DNA of 59,710 nucleotides from contig JACRCV010000084.1 in NCBI GenBank assembly GCA_016218825.1, positions 1 to 59,710 on the forward strand, given 5' to 3'. Position 1 is the first letter of the stretch. Every line of letters starts with the position of its first letter. The position numbers and the translations under genes are program-made. Under the pieces are notes generated by a model. That model was given only the letters and a program-made list of their open reading frames with translations, did not search any database and had not been told where the DNA came from. The stretch is from Deltaproteobacteria bacterium (GTDB taxonomy: Bacteria > Myxococcota > XYA12-FULL-58-9). Below, piece by piece: positions 53,131 to 59,710 of this stretch.

Positions 53131-55268
53131 GGCTGGCTGTAGCGGTAGAGGCCGCCGCCGTCGGTGCCGAGGTAGAGGGCGCCGGACTGTGGATCGAAGG
53201 CGAGCGACAGGCAGGTGAACGGGGCGCCGGCGTCGGTCCAGGTGGCGCCGTCGTCCTTCGATTCCCAGAGCGCGGTGTCGCCGGCGACGTAGAGGTGGGT
53301 GGGGTCGAGGGGATCTTCGGCGGCGTCGGTGAGCGTCATGTTTTCGAGCCCGAGGAGCGTGAAGCTCTGGCCGGCGTCGGTCGAGCGGTACAGGCCGACG
53401 CCGTGCTCGAAGGCGGCGAACAACCGGCCCGCGGGGGTGCGGCGCAGGAAGGTGCTGCCGAAGTGGCCGGCGAGGGACGTGACGGTGTCGGCGACCGCGT
53501 CGTAGCGCACGGCGCCTTGCCGGCCGACGATGACGACGTCCCGCGACACCGCGGCGACGTGGGGGGTGTAGCCGGGGTCGAGCTGGGCGAAGGTGGCCCC
53601 GGCATCCAGGCTGCGGAACAGGCCCTGGTAGCCGGCGCCGAGCCAGATCACGTCCGGGTCTTCGGGGGCGCGCGACACGCTGTTCACCGATTCGTCGACG
53701 TCGAGGCCGGCGGCGAGCGCCCAGGTGTTGCCGGCGTCGGTGCTCCGATAGAAGCGATCGCAGTCGTTGGCGCTCACGACCCACTCGGCGGCGTTCTCGG
53801 GATGCACCGAGATGTCCTGGGCGTTGACCGCAGCGAGGCCGGTGCCGCCGAGCCCCTCGAAGCCGGCGAGCGGCTGCCAGCGGAAGTAGCCGGCGAGGCT
53901 CGCGGCGCAAAAGAGGGTGCCGGTGGCGTCGTGCCATTCGAGGCGGCGGATGCCGTGGGCGGTGATACGGGTCGGGGCGAGTCCCGCGCCGGGCTGGTAG
54001 CGCAGGACGCCGGCCGCGTCGTGGCCGAGGAGCGCGCCGTTCGGATGGGCGACGAGCGCGCGCAGGGTGCCGCCGTCGGACGGCAGCCGGGTCTGGTAGC
54101 CGACCGGCGTGAAGGTGGCGCCGGCGTCGGTGGATCGCCACGCGGCGCGCGCCAGAAACCAGAGCTCCTCGCCGACGACCGCGAGCGTGAACGGCCGGCC
54201 GCTTTCGGGTGGCGGCAGGCCGACGGGCGCGAGCTCGGTCCACAGGGCGCCGTCGGGGCTCGTCCACAGGTCGTAGTAACTCCAGCCGCGGTCGAGGGCG
54301 ACGAGGGAGCCGGAGGCGAGCTTCACGACCGCGGCGACCGCGCCGTTCAGAGCGGTCGGGTCACAGGTGAGCAGGGCGCCGTCGGCCGTGCGGCACAGGG
54401 CGCCGGTGCTGGTGCCGACGAGGAAGCGAGTCGAATCGTTTGGATCGAGGCTCACGAAGCTGACGCTGGCGGGGGTCGCGGTCGCGCTCCAGCTGGCGCC
54501 GCCGTCGGTGCTCCGCCAGAGCGCGGTGGAGCCGGCGATGACGAGATCGGGGGTGTCGGGGCTCGCGGCCACCGCCGAGATCCCGAGGTTGGTGAGGGTG
54601 GTGGGCGTCCAGGTGGCGCCGTGGTCGTCGGTGCGCAGCACGCCGCCGGCGCCGTCGGCGTGGGTCCGCCACGCGGAGAGGTAGCCGCGGCCGTTTACGA
54701 GCAGCGCGAACCCGGAGACCTCGTCGACGGCGGTGAGGCCGGAGGGGAGGGTGGTGAACGAGTCGCCGCCGTCGCGGCTTTCGTAGAGGTGGCCGCCGCG
54801 GCTGCCGGCGAGGACGTGGCCGGGGTCGGCGGGGTCGACGGCGAGCGCGGTGATCGGGCCCCCGGAGGGTCCGCCGAGGGCGGTGAAGCCTGGGGTTTCG
54901 AGCGTCAGCTCGACGAGCACCTGCGCCGCTCCTTCGGGCCGGCCGCTCGGGTGGATGCGGATCACGTCGCGGTAGGTCCCGGCCGCCAGGTCGCGGGCGT
55001 TGACGCTCGCGTGGAGGAGCGCGGGGGTTTGGGCGGTCCGCGGATCGAGGATCAGCCATGGCGCGCCGGTCGTCGCGATGATCGGCACCGCCGCGCCGGC
55101 CGCCTCGCTCACCACGACATCCTGGGCGGGGGTGGCGCCGCCGCCTCGGGTCGCGAAGCGCAGGTAGGTCGGTGAGACCACGAGGCCGGTCTGGGGCGCC
55201 GGGCCGTCGGTTCGGGCGCAGGCCGCGCTCGCGACAGCCAAGACCAGGGCGGCGACCGCAGACTTCAT
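53127..55268 (-). CDS. Asp-box (BNR-type) beta-propeller lipoprotein
   Basis: The 713-residue protein has a lipoprotein signal with a SAAC lipobox (C17) and a BACON/Ig-like N-terminal domain near residues 25-120. The rest is many propeller blades with Asp boxes of the form S-x-D-x-G-x-T/S-(W/F), such as STDGGASWSA, TDDHGATWT, STDAGATFT, STDAGNTWA and SKDDGATWT. It resembles sialidase or Ycf48-type propellers but lacks the sialidase catalytic triad in any visible form, so binding is more likely than catalysis. It leads a two-gene unit with the PHP lipoprotein, whose start overlaps its stop. Confidence 0.85.
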   Translation of the reverse strand: MKSAVAALVLAVASAACARTDGPAPQTGLVVSPTYLRFATRGGGATPAQDVVVSEAAGAAVPIIATTGAPWLILDPRTAQTPALLHASVNARDLAAGTYRDVIRIHPSGRPEGAAQVLVELTLETPGFTALGGPSGGPITALAVDPADPGHVLAGSRGGHLYESRDGGDSFTTLPSGLTAVDEVSGFALLVNGRGYLSAWRTHADGAGGVLRTDDHGATWTPTTLTNLGISAVAASPDTPDLVIAGSTALWRSTDGGASWSATATPASVSFVSLDPNDSTRFLVGTSTGALCRTADGALLTCDPTALNGAVAAVVKLASGSLVALDRGWSYYDLWTSPDGALWTELAPVGLPPPESGRPFTLAVVGEELWFLARAAWRSTDAGATFTPVGYQTRLPSDGGTLRALVAHPNGALLGHDAAGVLRYQPGAGLAPTRITAHGIRRLEWHDATGTLFCAASLAGYFRWQPLAGFEGLGGTGLAAVNAQDISVHPENAAEWVVSANDCDRFYRSTDAGNTWALAAGLDVDESVNSVSRAPEDPDVIWLGAGYQGLFRSLDAGATFAQLDPGYTPHVAAVSRDVVIVGRQGAVRYDAVADTVTSLAGHFGSTFLRRTPAGRLFAAFEHGVGLYRSTDAGQSFTLLGLENMTLTDAAEDPLDPTHLYVAGDTALWESKDDGATWTDAGAPFTCLSLAFDPQSGALYLGTDGGGLYRYSQP

Positions 55269-55352
55269 CGGCGCGACTCTATCTCGTCCGGTCTACGTCG
55301 CCAATGGCGGCCGCTACTCAACGTCGTGGAGGAGTGCTACGTTGCTGCCGGT

Positions 55353-55439
55353 GCCGGGGTGGCGAAATTGGCAGACGCTGGGGACTTAAAATCCCCTGAC
55401 CGCAAGGTCGTGCGGGTTCGAGTCCCGCCCTCGGCACCA
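55353..55439 (+). tRNA. tRNA-Leu (anticodon UAA), CCA encoded
   Basis: The acceptor stem GCCGGGG (from 55353) pairs with CCTCGGC, with one G-U pair, followed by A and an encoded CCA at 55437-55439. The anticodon stem GGGGA/TCCCC holds loop CTTAAAA, so the anticodon is TAA. A long variable arm (GACCGCAAGGTC) marks a class II leucine tRNA, and GGTTCGAGTCCC is the T-arm. The gene reads UUA, rare in this GC-rich host, and is followed at once by foreign-looking DNA. Confidence 0.96.
55411..55439 (+). other. Candidate attachment site at the tRNA 3' end
   Basis: The T-arm and acceptor end of tRNA-Leu is the usual core of tRNA-integrated elements. The tRNA stays complete, and the integrase gene begins 130 bases away in AT-rich DNA. 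The matching repeat would lie at the far end of the element beyond the window, so the core limits cannot be set. Confidence 0.45.
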
Positions 55440-55505
55440 TAACTACTTGATATTAGAATTGAAATAGACACATCATTTCATCATCGTTTTCTCGCACCTC
55501 GCCGA

Positions 55506-55546
55506 AGTGACAACTGTGACCGAAATGTGTCATACTCCGGGTCACA
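55506..55546. promoter_or_regulatory. Interleaved inverted repeats upstream of the integrase
   Basis: TGTGACC (55515-55521) and GGTCACA (55540-55546) are a perfect 7-bp inverted repeat. TGACA (55508-55512) and TGTCA (55528-55532) form a second, shorter one overlapping it. They lie between the tRNA and the integrase start in AT-rich DNA. They could be arm-type integrase or excisionase sites, or a repressor operator. The symmetry is seen; the role is inferred. Confidence 0.45.
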
Positions 55547-55571
55547 GCAAAGCACTCCGGAGGTCCCCATC

Positions 55572-56594
55572 ATGGAGTTGTTTCAGCGCGACGGCTCTGA
55601 CAAATGGTGGTTGACGTACTCGATCGCCGGCAAGCGTTTCAGGGAATCCACGGGCACGCACGTCAAGCGTGAGGCCGAGGCCATCCTCGCCAAGCGCCGC
55701 GTCGAGATTTTCGAGGGCCGCCACTTCCCCGAGAAGAAGCGCAACGACCTCACGGTAGCGGGCCTGCGCGATCTGTGGAACGAGCACGCTCAGCACAAGG
55801 CTGACGCCAAGAAGGACAAACAGAAGCTCGGCGTCATCGTCGAATTCTTCGGTGCCAACGCGCTCGTGGCCACGCTCGCCAAGCGGGACAGCGAGCGATT
55901 CCGCGACACGCTTGCTGCCCGCGTCACAAGGAGCAAACGCAAGACCGCGCCGGCAACCGTCAACAGGTACCTCGCCCTCTGGCGAGCGGCCTTGAATCAC
56001 GTTCAGGGCGACTACCTCCATAGGAATCCGATGGCGGGCGTGGCCTTCCTGCCTGAGCGCAACCAACGCGAGCGGGAGTGCGAGGCCGAGGAGTACGAGT
56101 CGCTACTCGGACGCGCCGACGCTGACATGCGGCTCGCCCTCGTGCTCGCCTATGAGCAAGGGATGCGGCGAACAGAGATCTGTCGGTCGCTGCGTGCGCA
56201 GGTGAGCACCAAGCGGCGCGAGATCCAGGTCCCCGCCGATGCCTCCAAGAACACCTTCCCCAGGACGGTGCCGCTCACCAAGAGAGCCCTCGCCGAGATT
56301 GAGGCCGCGCCGGTGCGCATGGACGGGCGGCTCGTGGCGCTGGAGCCGGACACGGTGACGCACAGGTTTACTGGGCTTTGCAGCGCACTCGGCATCGAGG
56401 GACTGCACTTCCACGACTTGCGCGGCACCGCGATCACGCGCCTGTCCCGCGCCGGAGCCAGCCTAGCAGAGCTGCAAAAGTTCTCGGGGCACAAGTCGGT
56501 GCAGGCGTTGATGCGCTACCTCAAGCGCGGGGATCGCAGGTTGAGAGAGTTGGTGGACAAGATGGACGCGGCGGACGGAGGGCGGCATGGGTAG
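55572..56594 (+). CDS. int: Tyrosine site-specific integrase
   Basis: The 340-residue recombinase has an N-terminal DNA-binding region, a SAM-like core-binding region (residues about 60-160) and a C-terminal catalytic domain. Catalytic residues are R199 in EQGMRRTEI, H281-x-x-R284 in FHDLRGTA, H307 in SGHKS and nucleophile Y316. The catalytic set is complete, so the enzyme looks active. The ATG at 55572 has CCGGAGG eight bases upstream. It reads away from tRNA-Leu, placing it as the first gene of an integrated element. The next gene overlaps its stop by eight bases. Confidence 0.94.
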   Translation: MELFQRDGSDKWWLTYSIAGKRFRESTGTHVKREAEAILAKRRVEIFEGRHFPEKKRNDLTVAGLRDLWNEHAQHKADAKKDKQKLGVIVEFFGANALVATLAKRDSERFRDTLAARVTRSKRKTAPATVNRYLALWRAALNHVQGDYLHRNPMAGVAFLPERNQRERECEAEEYESLLGRADADMRLALVLAYEQGMRRTEICRSLRAQVSTKRREIQVPADASKNTFPRTVPLTKRALAEIEAAPVRMDGRLVALEPDTVTHRFTGLCSALGIEGLHFHDLRGTAITRLSRAGASLAELQKFSGHKSVQALMRYLKRGDRRLRELVDKMDAADGGRHG

Positions 56595-57414
56595 GTCAAA
56601 GGCGGGCGCATTGGGTGCAGCACCCGAGGGTGGACCGCCTCAGACTGCGTCGCCTCAGGCCACACCCGCCGAGGCCGCGTCGGCTCCGCCGGATGCCACG
56701 GGGATCCCCAGCGACGTGAAAGCGTTCCTCCAGTTCTGGGAGGATCGCGTCATCGGCAACATGAACGATGAGAGCTGGCAAGATTGGTTTGGTGAGAGCC
56801 GGCAAGAGTGGTTTGGGAAGAACGACGAACTACATGCTCGAATCGCCGCGGGTGATGACGCTGCCCTTCTCATCCTCGTGGCGCGAGATCCGAGGACACT
56901 TGCTCACGGCGCGGTGATCGGTCGAATCCTGCAAGCCCACTATGCGCTCCTCGCCGCGAAAGAACGGCAGCCAAGGTGGTTTGAGGAGGGGGACTATCTC
57001 GGTGAGAAGAAGAAGCGGGTCGCGGATGCTACGACGTTCCTGAATCGGCTGGCGGAGGCCATCACGCGCGCCGTGCCACGCGGGAAGGGGAAGGTGGCCT
57101 GGTCCCGAAGGATGGTTCAACGCTGCTTCGCTAGCATCGCCAAAGGAGTACTCGGGATTGCCGCCGACCCGATGGTGGCGGGCAGGAGCTGGGACGAGTT
57201 GCAGGAGGTAGCTGCCGACCGTAAGGCCGTTCGCGCCCTGGCGCGCTCGCACGAGGTCCACCCGACTGTCGTGAAGAGCTTTCTGAACGGCACTGGCAAC
57301 GACGTGCAGCGCGTGGCATTGGAACAAACCGCTGAGGAGCTTGGAATTCCGGAGGCAACGGTCGAGACGTACACCCGTGGCATCGTTTCCGAGTTGAAGA
57401 AAAGGCGGAAGTAG
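56587..57414 (+). CDS. Unknown element protein with C-terminal HTH-like segment
   Basis: I do not recognise this 275-residue protein. It starts eight bases inside the integrase gene with GGAGGG as ribosome binding site. A Pro/Ala-rich N-terminus is followed by a Trp-rich near-repeat (ESWQDWFGESRQEWFGKN, about residues 59-76), then helical segments with many Arg and Lys. Near the end, QTAEELGIPEATVETYTR resembles a helix-turn-helix. Translation coupled to the integrase suggests a role in recombination or control of the element, but this is context only. Confidence 0.72.
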   Translation: MGRSKAGALGAAPEGGPPQTASPQATPAEAASAPPDATGIPSDVKAFLQFWEDRVIGNMNDESWQDWFGESRQEWFGKNDELHARIAAGDDAALLILVARDPRTLAHGAVIGRILQAHYALLAAKERQPRWFEEGDYLGEKKKRVADATTFLNRLAEAITRAVPRGKGKVAWSRRMVQRCFASIAKGVLGIAADPMVAGRSWDELQEVAADRKAVRALARSHEVHPTVVKSFLNGTGNDVQRVALEQTAEELGIPEATVETYTRGIVSELKKRRK

Positions 57415-57440
57415 ACGCCGCCAATCCTCCGCTTCACGCG

Positions 57441-57500
57441 ATGGTCAACCAGATGACCATGTGATGCCATGTGCTCGGAGGTGTTGGCACATGGCATCAC
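57441..57500 (+). promoter_or_regulatory. Double inverted repeat covering the excisionase-like start codon
   Basis: ATGGTCA (57441-57447) and TGACCAT (57454-57460) form a 7-bp inverted repeat. Immediately after it, GTGATGCCATGTG (57461-57473) and CACATGGCATCAC (57488-57500) form a perfect 13-bp inverted repeat. The 14-base loop holds the ribosome binding site GGAGG, and the ATG at 57491 lies in the right arm. As RNA this would hide the start codon; as DNA it could be an operator or recombination site. Confidence 0.8.
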
Positions 57501-57730
57501 AGGCGCAACAGACACACTGGACGGTGAGCGATCTCGCGTTGCGATGGTCGGTCAGCCCAAACTTCATTCGCAGGAAGATCTGGGACGGCGAGCTTGTCGC
57601 CGCCCGATTTGGACGAGCCATCCGCGTCAGCGAGGCCGAGGCGCGTCGTTTTGAAGAGGGCCACGCGACCGCATCCAGCGGCGAGCCCACGCGCAACAGG
57701 CCGATGGTGGTGGCCACGGCGAAGCTGTGA
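57491..57730 (+). CDS. Excisionase-like helix-turn-helix protein
   Basis: The 79-residue protein has a MerR-like HTH_17 core: WTVSDLALRWSVSPNFIRRK, then IWDGELVAARFGRAIRVSE and AEARRFEE. This is the Xis/AlpA-type winged helix used by directionality factors and small regulators of mobile elements. The ATG at 57491 is preceded by GGAGG in the loop of a strong hairpin. Given the nearby integrase, a role as excisionase is likely, but a transcription regulator is also possible. Confidence 0.83.
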   Translation: MASQAQQTHWTVSDLALRWSVSPNFIRRKIWDGELVAARFGRAIRVSEAEARRFEEGHATASSGEPTRNRPMVVATAKL

Positions 57731-57820
57731 AGGCGATGTCTGGCCGCGGTTGTGCGGCATCGCCCGACTGCCGCCATACCGTCATCGATCTGGCTGACCA
57801 CAGCGGTCGCGGAGAAGCCC

Positions 57821-58456
57821 GTGATTGACTGCACAGACACGCCAACAATGCCGTGCCATCGTCCGAATGAGGGTGACCAACCTACGGTGCCGCCCGACAC
57901 CGTGAACGAGCGCCACGCCTTCGCCGCCGAGTACCGCTGCATCGCGGCTGACCCACCCTGGCCAGAGCGCGGTGGTGGTCGCATAAAACGCGGCGCTGAT
58001 CGACACTACAAACTGCTCCGCCCCCACGAAATCATCAGCACCATTCTCGGGGCCGGAGTCTGGCGGCCAGCTCTCAATTGCCATCTGTGGTTGTGGGCAA
58101 CCAACAATCATCTGCCCGACGCTCTATTCGTGATGGCGGCGCTCGGCTTCCGGTACGTCACCAACGCCGTTTGGGCCAAGGACCGCGCTGGTCTGGGGCA
58201 ATACCTCCGTGGAAGGCATGAGCTGCTTCTCTTTGGTGTGCGCGGGAGGTTGCCATCGCAATCTCGACGGTGTTCCACGCTCATCGAGGCCAAACGGGGA
58301 CGGCATAGCCAGAAGCCGCTTGCCGCCTTCCAGTTGATCGAGGCCGTCAGCCCCGGCCCACGGCTGGAGATGTTTGCCCGCTCTCTGCGAGATGGATGGG
58401 ATTGCTGGGGCGATGAATTGGTGGACGATCGAGCTACGGCGTCCGGGGCGGTGTAG
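57821..58456 (+). CDS. MT-A70 family adenine-N6 methyltransferase
   Basis: The 211-residue protein has the MT-A70 catalytic motif D44-P-P-W47 in CIAADPPWPERGG. It also has LWLWATNNHLPDALFVMAALGFRYVTNAVWAKDR and GLGQYLRGRHELLLFGVRG, which match the core strands of the family. It transfers methyl from S-adenosylmethionine to adenine in DNA (in phage and element members) or RNA. GTG 57821 has GGAGAAG before it; GTG 57752 and ATG 57848 are alternatives. No endonuclease gene follows directly, so it is an orphan methyltransferase. Protection of the element from host restriction is a fair inference. Confidence 0.88.
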   Translation: MIDCTDTPTMPCHRPNEGDQPTVPPDTVNERHAFAAEYRCIAADPPWPERGGGRIKRGADRHYKLLRPHEIISTILGAGVWRPALNCHLWLWATNNHLPDALFVMAALGFRYVTNAVWAKDRAGLGQYLRGRHELLLFGVRGRLPSQSRRCSTLIEAKRGRHSQKPLAAFQLIEAVSPGPRLEMFARSLRDGWDCWGDELVDDRATASGAV

Positions 58457-58458
58457 CC

Positions 58459-59694
58459 ATGCTGCTTGCCGACGACCACCTTACTGGGGGCAGCGGTGCG
58501 CGACGCCACGTCAGCATCGGTAGGGATCGGCGTGGGCGAAAACTTGAATCGGCCGATGATGGTCGGCGAGGTGCCAAGGGGCGACGGGGGCCGCCGAGGA
58601 CGCCCGCGCTCACGCTCATCCACCGTGCATGGCTCGCCTTCAGACTTGCTGAAATGGGCCTGTCCTGCCGGGAGTTTGCGGCGATGGCGGGATGTTCTGA
58701 GAGCCATGTCCGTAGCGTGTTGAATGGCAATCGTGGTCTGAGCCCTGCGGCCTTGGGGGAGTGGCTGAGGCTAGTATCACCAGACAATGCTAGTGACAGC
58801 GAACTTGATGCACAGATGCATCCGTGGTTGACGAAGATCGCATGTATGAGTGCGGAGATGACCGCAGATTGCTCATCGAAGTCTGGAAAGCAGCCAACAC
58901 CACCTCGAATCACAGTAGGCTTTCATGAGCTGAGGCTGGAAGGACAAGCCGAGAAACAGGGGGAGGTGAGAGCCCTTTTCGAGGAATTGCTACCCTCCGG
59001 CACCGACAAGGCCCTTTTGTTCACGCTCAACGGCGTAGAGTTGATGCTGGAGGCACAGTGGCTCGGAGGCGCGCGCCACGCGCGCCTCTTCTTCATCCGG
59101 GCTGTGCGCTTTGGTCATCAGGTTGTGGCGAGCCTTGAGCTTGGCTGCCGCACCCGCCGCTGCAAACCGCATCGCCGCCTTCGTGGGGAGCACAAGCGCG
59201 GCGGCAAATGGCGCGCCGGGTGCTACTACGAGGCTCAGGGTCTGGAGTGCCCGAGTGACCACTACAACACCAAGCCTCGGCGCTGTGGCTGTGAGCTTCC
59301 CGATGACCTCTACTGGAAATGCCCGGATTGTCGGGAGCTGAACGGTCACAACTGTCCCACCTGCCAACGCGCAAAACAGGAAGCGCCGGACATCTTCATC
59401 CGCGTCACCGGCCTTGGGTGTCAGCTCGGCCTTCTTGAGCCCATCGTCCAGCAATTCTTCGCGCGGTTTGTCTGCCCTGTCACCGTGGTGCGGCACGAGG
59501 TCCACATCAAGGCCGACTTTGACGAGCCCCAGGCCGCGCTCATCCCTTTCCAGACAAATGACGGTCCCTCCAAGGTTGATTCGCCCGTAAAAACCCCTCC
59601 CGCTCCCGCCTCAAAAAGATCCATCGCCGCCAAGTTGGTGTATGGCGTGCATGTTCCGACCCACCTCTCCCCAGCGTCCCCTGTTCGGTGTTGA
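58459..59694 (+). CDS. HTH and Cys-rich zinc-ribbon-like protein of unknown function
   Basis: I do not recognise this 411-residue protein. It starts two bases after the methyltransferase stop. Residues about 65-105 are a Cro/C1-like helix-turn-helix (GLSCREFAAMAGCSESHVRS then VLNGNRGLSPAALGEWL). The middle is alpha/beta. Residues about 228-310 hold many cysteines, including GCRTRRC, RRCGC and KCPDC...NCPTC with a CxxC-x7-CxxC spacing, suited to zinc binding. The C-terminal 40 residues are Pro/Ser-rich. Coupling to the methyltransferase suggests a shared function, perhaps regulation or target recognition. The next gene lies outside the window. Confidence 0.75.
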   Translation: MLLADDHLTGGSGARRHVSIGRDRRGRKLESADDGRRGAKGRRGPPRTPALTLIHRAWLAFRLAEMGLSCREFAAMAGCSESHVRSVLNGNRGLSPAALGEWLRLVSPDNASDSELDAQMHPWLTKIACMSAEMTADCSSKSGKQPTPPRITVGFHELRLEGQAEKQGEVRALFEELLPSGTDKALLFTLNGVELMLEAQWLGGARHARLFFIRAVRFGHQVVASLELGCRTRRCKPHRRLRGEHKRGGKWRAGCYYEAQGLECPSDHYNTKPRRCGCELPDDLYWKCPDCRELNGHNCPTCQRAKQEAPDIFIRVTGLGCQLGLLEPIVQQFFARFVCPVTVVRHEVHIKADFDEPQAALIPFQTNDGPSKVDSPVKTPPAPASKRSIAAKLVYGVHVPTHLSPASPVRC

Positions 59695-59710
59695 GCATCG
59701 TGTCGACGAC

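Follow-up and report, generated by a model that had tools for sequence, protein, structure and literature searches.

What is accomplished by a perfect inverted repeat placed directly over the start codon of an excisionase-like gene is the question raised by the element at the right end of the DNA stretch analysed here (59,710 nucleotides in full, hereafter the window). On the left the element is bounded by a tRNA-Leu (TAA) located by tRNA detection at 55353-55439, its probable attachment site, which is followed on the forward strand by an adjoining tyrosine recombinase identified by family match (integrase, int; 55572-56594), an orphan ORF of 275 aa termed P1 (56587-57414) that overlaps the end of int and stops 76 nt before xis, the 76-nt gap with both repeats discussed below, the excisionase-like gene xis (57491-57730), an MT-A70 family DNA methyltransferase (57821-58456; family match) and a further ORF, P2, with a weak match to an N-terminal XRE-like helix-turn-helix (HTH). 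No family was found for P1 by domain and PHROG profile searches, its similarity to the corresponding ORF of G029 (a contig of the same phylum) was not detectable, and its AlphaFold model, made without relatives, was uninterpretable (pLDDT 52). Three sigma-70-like promoter matches were located upstream of int (55431-55536, forward strand; 0.4 expected), and a scan for sigma-70 sites only found no promoter-like sites upstream of xis. Beside the three matches the int leader contains an 8-bp inverted repeat at 55514-55547, CTGTGACC-N18-GGTCACAG, which is a possible int operator. At the other side, the sequence of 59574-59710 is found unchanged at eight further contig ends of this genome and represents the end of a multi-copy insertion sequence, and because of this identity from about 59574 onwards the insertion sequence is the probable cause both of a truncation of P2 and of the break in the assembly. 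The contig stops inside the insertion sequence at 59710, and the element is known here by its left part only.

The gene xis encodes a small protein of 79 aa with an HTH_17 domain (PF12728, 27.4 bits against a cut-off of 27) and matches to the excisionase families PHROG 66 and 1840, and int lies 0.9 kb upstream, all of which bears out the excisionase-like assignment made in the initial annotation. Its frame is open back to a GTG at 57461; a good Shine-Dalgarno (SD) sequence was present only before the ATG at 57491, and counted from this ATG the N-terminal length is about equal to that of the nearest Xis homologue (L025, 41% identical).

A perfect inverted repeat of 13 bp had been described between 57441 and 57500, with the ribosome binding site in its loop and the ATG in its stem. 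The repeat is present, but its arms measure 15 bp, so that the hairpin ends at 57501, and base 57441 belongs to a separate 7-bp repeat. Its longest arms, determined by repeat search, are TGTGATGCCATGTGC (57460-57474) and GCACATGGCATCACA (57487-57501) on the forward strand, 100% complementary and separated by the 12-nt loop TCGGAGGTGTTG (57475-57486). The placement of the translation signals was confirmed, as the loop holds the strong SD sequence GGAGGTG (57477-57483, with GGAGG at 57477-57481) and the 3' arm includes the xis ATG (57491-57493), 9 nt past GGAGG. The 7-bp repeat reported beside the hairpin was also recovered, as a 7-6-7 palindrome ATGGTCA-ACCAGA-TGACCAT (57441-57460, forward strand; arms 57441-57447 and 57454-57460, 6-nt spacer) that shares base 57460 with the hairpin; it is a candidate for a second small RNA hairpin or for a dimer operator in DNA, and a second copy was not found within the element. 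A dispersed repeat was ruled out, as the 15-mer arm has no other occurrence in its own genome with up to one mismatch allowed and the entire inverted repeat, with up to three mismatches allowed, was absent from all 19 related genomes. An Rfam riboswitch or leader family was ruled out as well, only the tRNA passing the covariance-model cut-off in 55200-59710.

When perfect arms with loops of 3-60 nt were compared, the 15-bp hairpin was the longest inverted repeat in the window, the runner-up having 12 bp. First-order Markov shuffles of the window reached 15 bp in two of 100 cases (0.02 inverted repeats of 15 bp each) and shuffles with the length and composition of the element in none of 1000, while scaling of the window shuffles gives 1-2 such repeats by chance across the whole 6.5-Mb genome. 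The initial annotation judged a perfect match of this length improbable by chance. A chance origin at exactly the xis start position is unlikely, genome-wide a repeat of this length could be fortuitous, and the repeat is genuine and, for this location, non-random. Another 332 kb of the same genome contained a single longer perfect inverted repeat, of 16 bp, in a second element (C82:57045-57155, corresponding to L078:12045-12155). It carries a nested palindrome ATCCACATGTGGAT with outer arms GCTCAAC/GTTGAGC, folds at -54 kcal/mol (z -6.7), has arms that do not recur exactly anywhere else in the genome and is situated between divergent ORFs, 75-147 bp upstream of xis-int depending on the xis start; with 75 bp or more separating it from its xis, it cannot cover the start codon. 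In the 391 kb sampled, perfect repeats of 15 bp or longer numbered just these two, and both are over or upstream of xis genes.

We then considered the predicted RNA folding at the xis start. The region folds at -28.0 kcal/mol against a median of -15.9 and is the most stable among 40 long-ORF starts of the window, a rough comparison given that these starts were called mechanically; its z was -4.2 (-4.0 to -4.5 with other folding windows) and none of the shuffles was equally good. The AUG is predicted to lie in a stable stem within a fold stronger than composition predicts, as in a hairpin that sequesters a start codon. For long transcripts, with a 5' end upstream of about 57464, the SD was calculated to be 81% unpaired with an opening cost of 0.9 kcal/mol, while the AUG was 0.1% unpaired with an opening cost of 7.8-10.6 kcal/mol. 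In the ensemble calculation a 5' end at 57468 or later lowers the cost of opening the AUG to 2-4 kcal/mol. The opening of the full 38-nt ribosome footprint costs 27.6 kcal/mol at xis, 27.2 at P1 and 28.6 at P2, which is ordinary for this GC-rich element; the unusual feature of xis in the folding model is that the AUG is closed while the SD is open. The methylase start is partly similar (AUG 0.8% unpaired).

Conservation of the structure in relatives, through which the initial annotation would have had it verified, was not found. There were no close relatives in viral contigs, phages, plasmids or 84,980 genomes, and P1, P2, Xis and Int used as queries in viral, phage and plasmid collections gave no useful relatives. 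The order of int, unknown ORF, short gap and xis also occurs in two contigs of the same phylum, namely G029:C222, with int 45% identical and an ORF-xis gap of about 70 nt, and G023:C302, where int is 33% identical and located beside a tRNA-Arg and the gap is about 48 nt; a third xis homologue, in G024, has a different gene context. At the xis starts of all three the fold was equal to or marginally better than shuffles and no equivalent start-codon hairpin was seen, G029 having a small 7-bp hairpin (GGUGUCC/GGACGCC) no better than shuffles and G024 a small hairpin before the SD only. As these three starts are without an equivalent, the hairpin is not shared across the family at this distance. 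In the G023 element, L026:5911-5946 forms a hairpin of 13 bp, one of them a G-U pair, GGTGGACCGATAA/TTATCGGTTCACC, which lies 26 nt before the xis start codon and not over it, and whose 5' arm includes the stop codon of the ORF preceding xis. A hairpin common to xis leaders across the family was not supported by a survey of 30 loci with HTH_17-like proteins from the phylum, which showed no shared hairpin at the ribosome binding site (RBS), the start codons having been picked automatically and several being doubtful. At one HTH_17 gene (L115, about position 1464) the presumed ATG, whose choice as start is uncertain, falls in a 9-bp perfect hairpin, CATGGGCAC-TCGT-GTGCCCATG.

Judged by geometry and folding, the best single explanation, to which we give slightly less than an even chance, is that the repeat acts as RNA, with the hairpin blocking Xis translation on read-through int transcripts. 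Transcripts from the int promoters beside the tRNA would run through P1 into xis and fold the 15-bp hairpin, whose loop would expose the SD and whose stem would hide the AUG, leaving 30S subunits unable to start on xis, and the outcome would be integrase produced without excisionase. The P1 stop codon is 46 nt upstream of the hairpin, and at this distance ribosomes terminating on P1 would not be expected to melt it. This is the simplest reading since the scan gave no promoter-like sites other than those before int and the P1 ribosomes stop too far away. Xis would then be produced solely by avoiding the structure, either from a transcript whose 5' end falls within the 5' arm, at about 57468 or later, or after a protein or antisense RNA has opened the hairpin. 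The RNA switch delaying Xis synthesis that was proposed at the outset is thus retained in its geometry, which fits start-codon occlusion with the SD open and the AUG closed, but it gains nothing from conservation, and the terms 'switch' and 'delay' presuppose some means of relief; the analysis revealed neither an xis promoter nor an antisense RNA or a factor that would open the hairpin. The perfect stem, the fold z of about -4, the co-directional arrangement of int, P1 and xis and the lack of a predicted U-tract terminator suggest translational blocking by the hairpin, as does, at the level of gene order, the recurrence of int-ORF-xis, the gaps measuring about 50-70 nt, in the two further elements from this phylum. 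Against it stand the lack of conservation in G029, G023 and G024, the ordinary cost of the 38-nt footprint and a symmetry that fits a DNA site equally. Still more tentatively, and with doubts outweighing confidence, we would define an excisionase translation lock as an int-ORF-xis element bearing a hairpin with the SD in the loop and the AUG in the stem, in which read-through would yield integrase only and the direction of recombination would be set by the transcript start.

An RNA hairpin and a protein-binding site are inseparable from sequence alone, as a perfect repeat fits both. As the main rival reading, the symmetry may accordingly be a DNA site, in which the 20-bp palindrome at 57441-57460 and the 42-bp repeat serve as operators of a dimeric regulator that represses a local xis promoter and the RNA hairpin is a by-product; candidates for the putative regulator are the XRE-like P2, P1, Xis itself or a repressor encoded on the missing part of the element. 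We regard this as unlikely, though with a good deal in its favour: ATGGTCA-N6-TGACCAT is sized like a typical HTH-dimer operator, one strand has two copies of CCATGTG spaced by 10 bp and a further copy is inverted, P2 carries its weak XRE-like HTH, and the 16-bp repeat of the second element is placed between divergent ORFs, upstream of xis rather than over its start codon. However, no further copy of either half-site was found in the element, the int leader included, no sigma-70-like promoter was found there to control, a site of 42 bp around a 12-bp centre is long for a single dimer, and the position over the SD and AUG rather than over a promoter would be a coincidence.

Stable and placed between two genes that may form an operon, the 15-bp hairpin might also work as a transcription attenuator or terminator that ends the int-P1 mRNA before xis, and Tn916 offers a precedent for terminators insulating integrative elements (PMC11658703). 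We consider this very improbable because the hairpin lacks a U-tract; a T-run is absent on both strands, the hairpin was not listed by the terminator scan, its 12-nt loop is long and its stem contains the start codon of the next gene. An intrinsic terminator, defined by a GC-rich hairpin with a U-tract, was rejected for lack of the latter. The repeat might also have arisen by chance, or as a recent inverted duplication that has no function; this would agree with the absence of the repeat from relatives and with the 1-2 repeats expected across the 6.5-Mb genome, yet it is improbable in view of the element-sized shuffles, none of which reached 15 bp, the exact overlap with the ribosome binding site of the element's control gene and the association of both long perfect repeats in the sampled 391 kb with xis genes.

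Hairpins at the RBS are well known for transposases. In IS200 a 5' hairpin at the transposase RBS reportedly limits translation, and in IS10 and IS50 hairpins act on read-through transposase transcripts. The start-region hairpins of recombination genes in mobile elements have an experimental precedent in ISPpu9, where a 5' hairpin at the transposase ribosome binding site limits translation and its weakening raised expression 26-fold (PMC8450116). The hairpin predicted here resembles those of ISPpu9 and IS200 in being a start-region hairpin on a recombination gene of a mobile element, but differs in its gene, an excisionase within a tyrosine-recombinase element, in carrying the SD in its loop instead of its stem and in having no known antisense RNA. 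In the literature searched, with incomplete coverage, we did not find an RBS hairpin described on a phage-type excisionase. In Tn916, terminators insulate the integrative element from untimely read-through expression (PMC11658703). The likeness to the Tn916 system is an RNA signal guarding an integrative element against read-through; Tn916 uses transcription termination, whereas the hairpin here is without a U-tract.

Blocking of Xis translation by the hairpin would also parallel two phage systems. In T4, long read-through transcripts of gene e and gene 49 have the start region closed, and transcripts with a 5' end within the hairpin have it open. The likeness is a start closed or opened according to the transcript 5' end, but the T4 genes are late genes of a lytic phage with known late promoters and no such promoter was found here. 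In phage lambda, the pI promoter inside xis provides integrase without excisionase. The logic would be the same, but in lambda, with xis upstream of int, the position of the promoter does the job, whereas here int is upstream of xis and the hairpin would act after transcription. If true, the excisionase lock would be a post-transcriptional counterpart of the lambda pI arrangement, a simple RNA device setting the balance of integration and excision in poorly studied Myxococcota elements.
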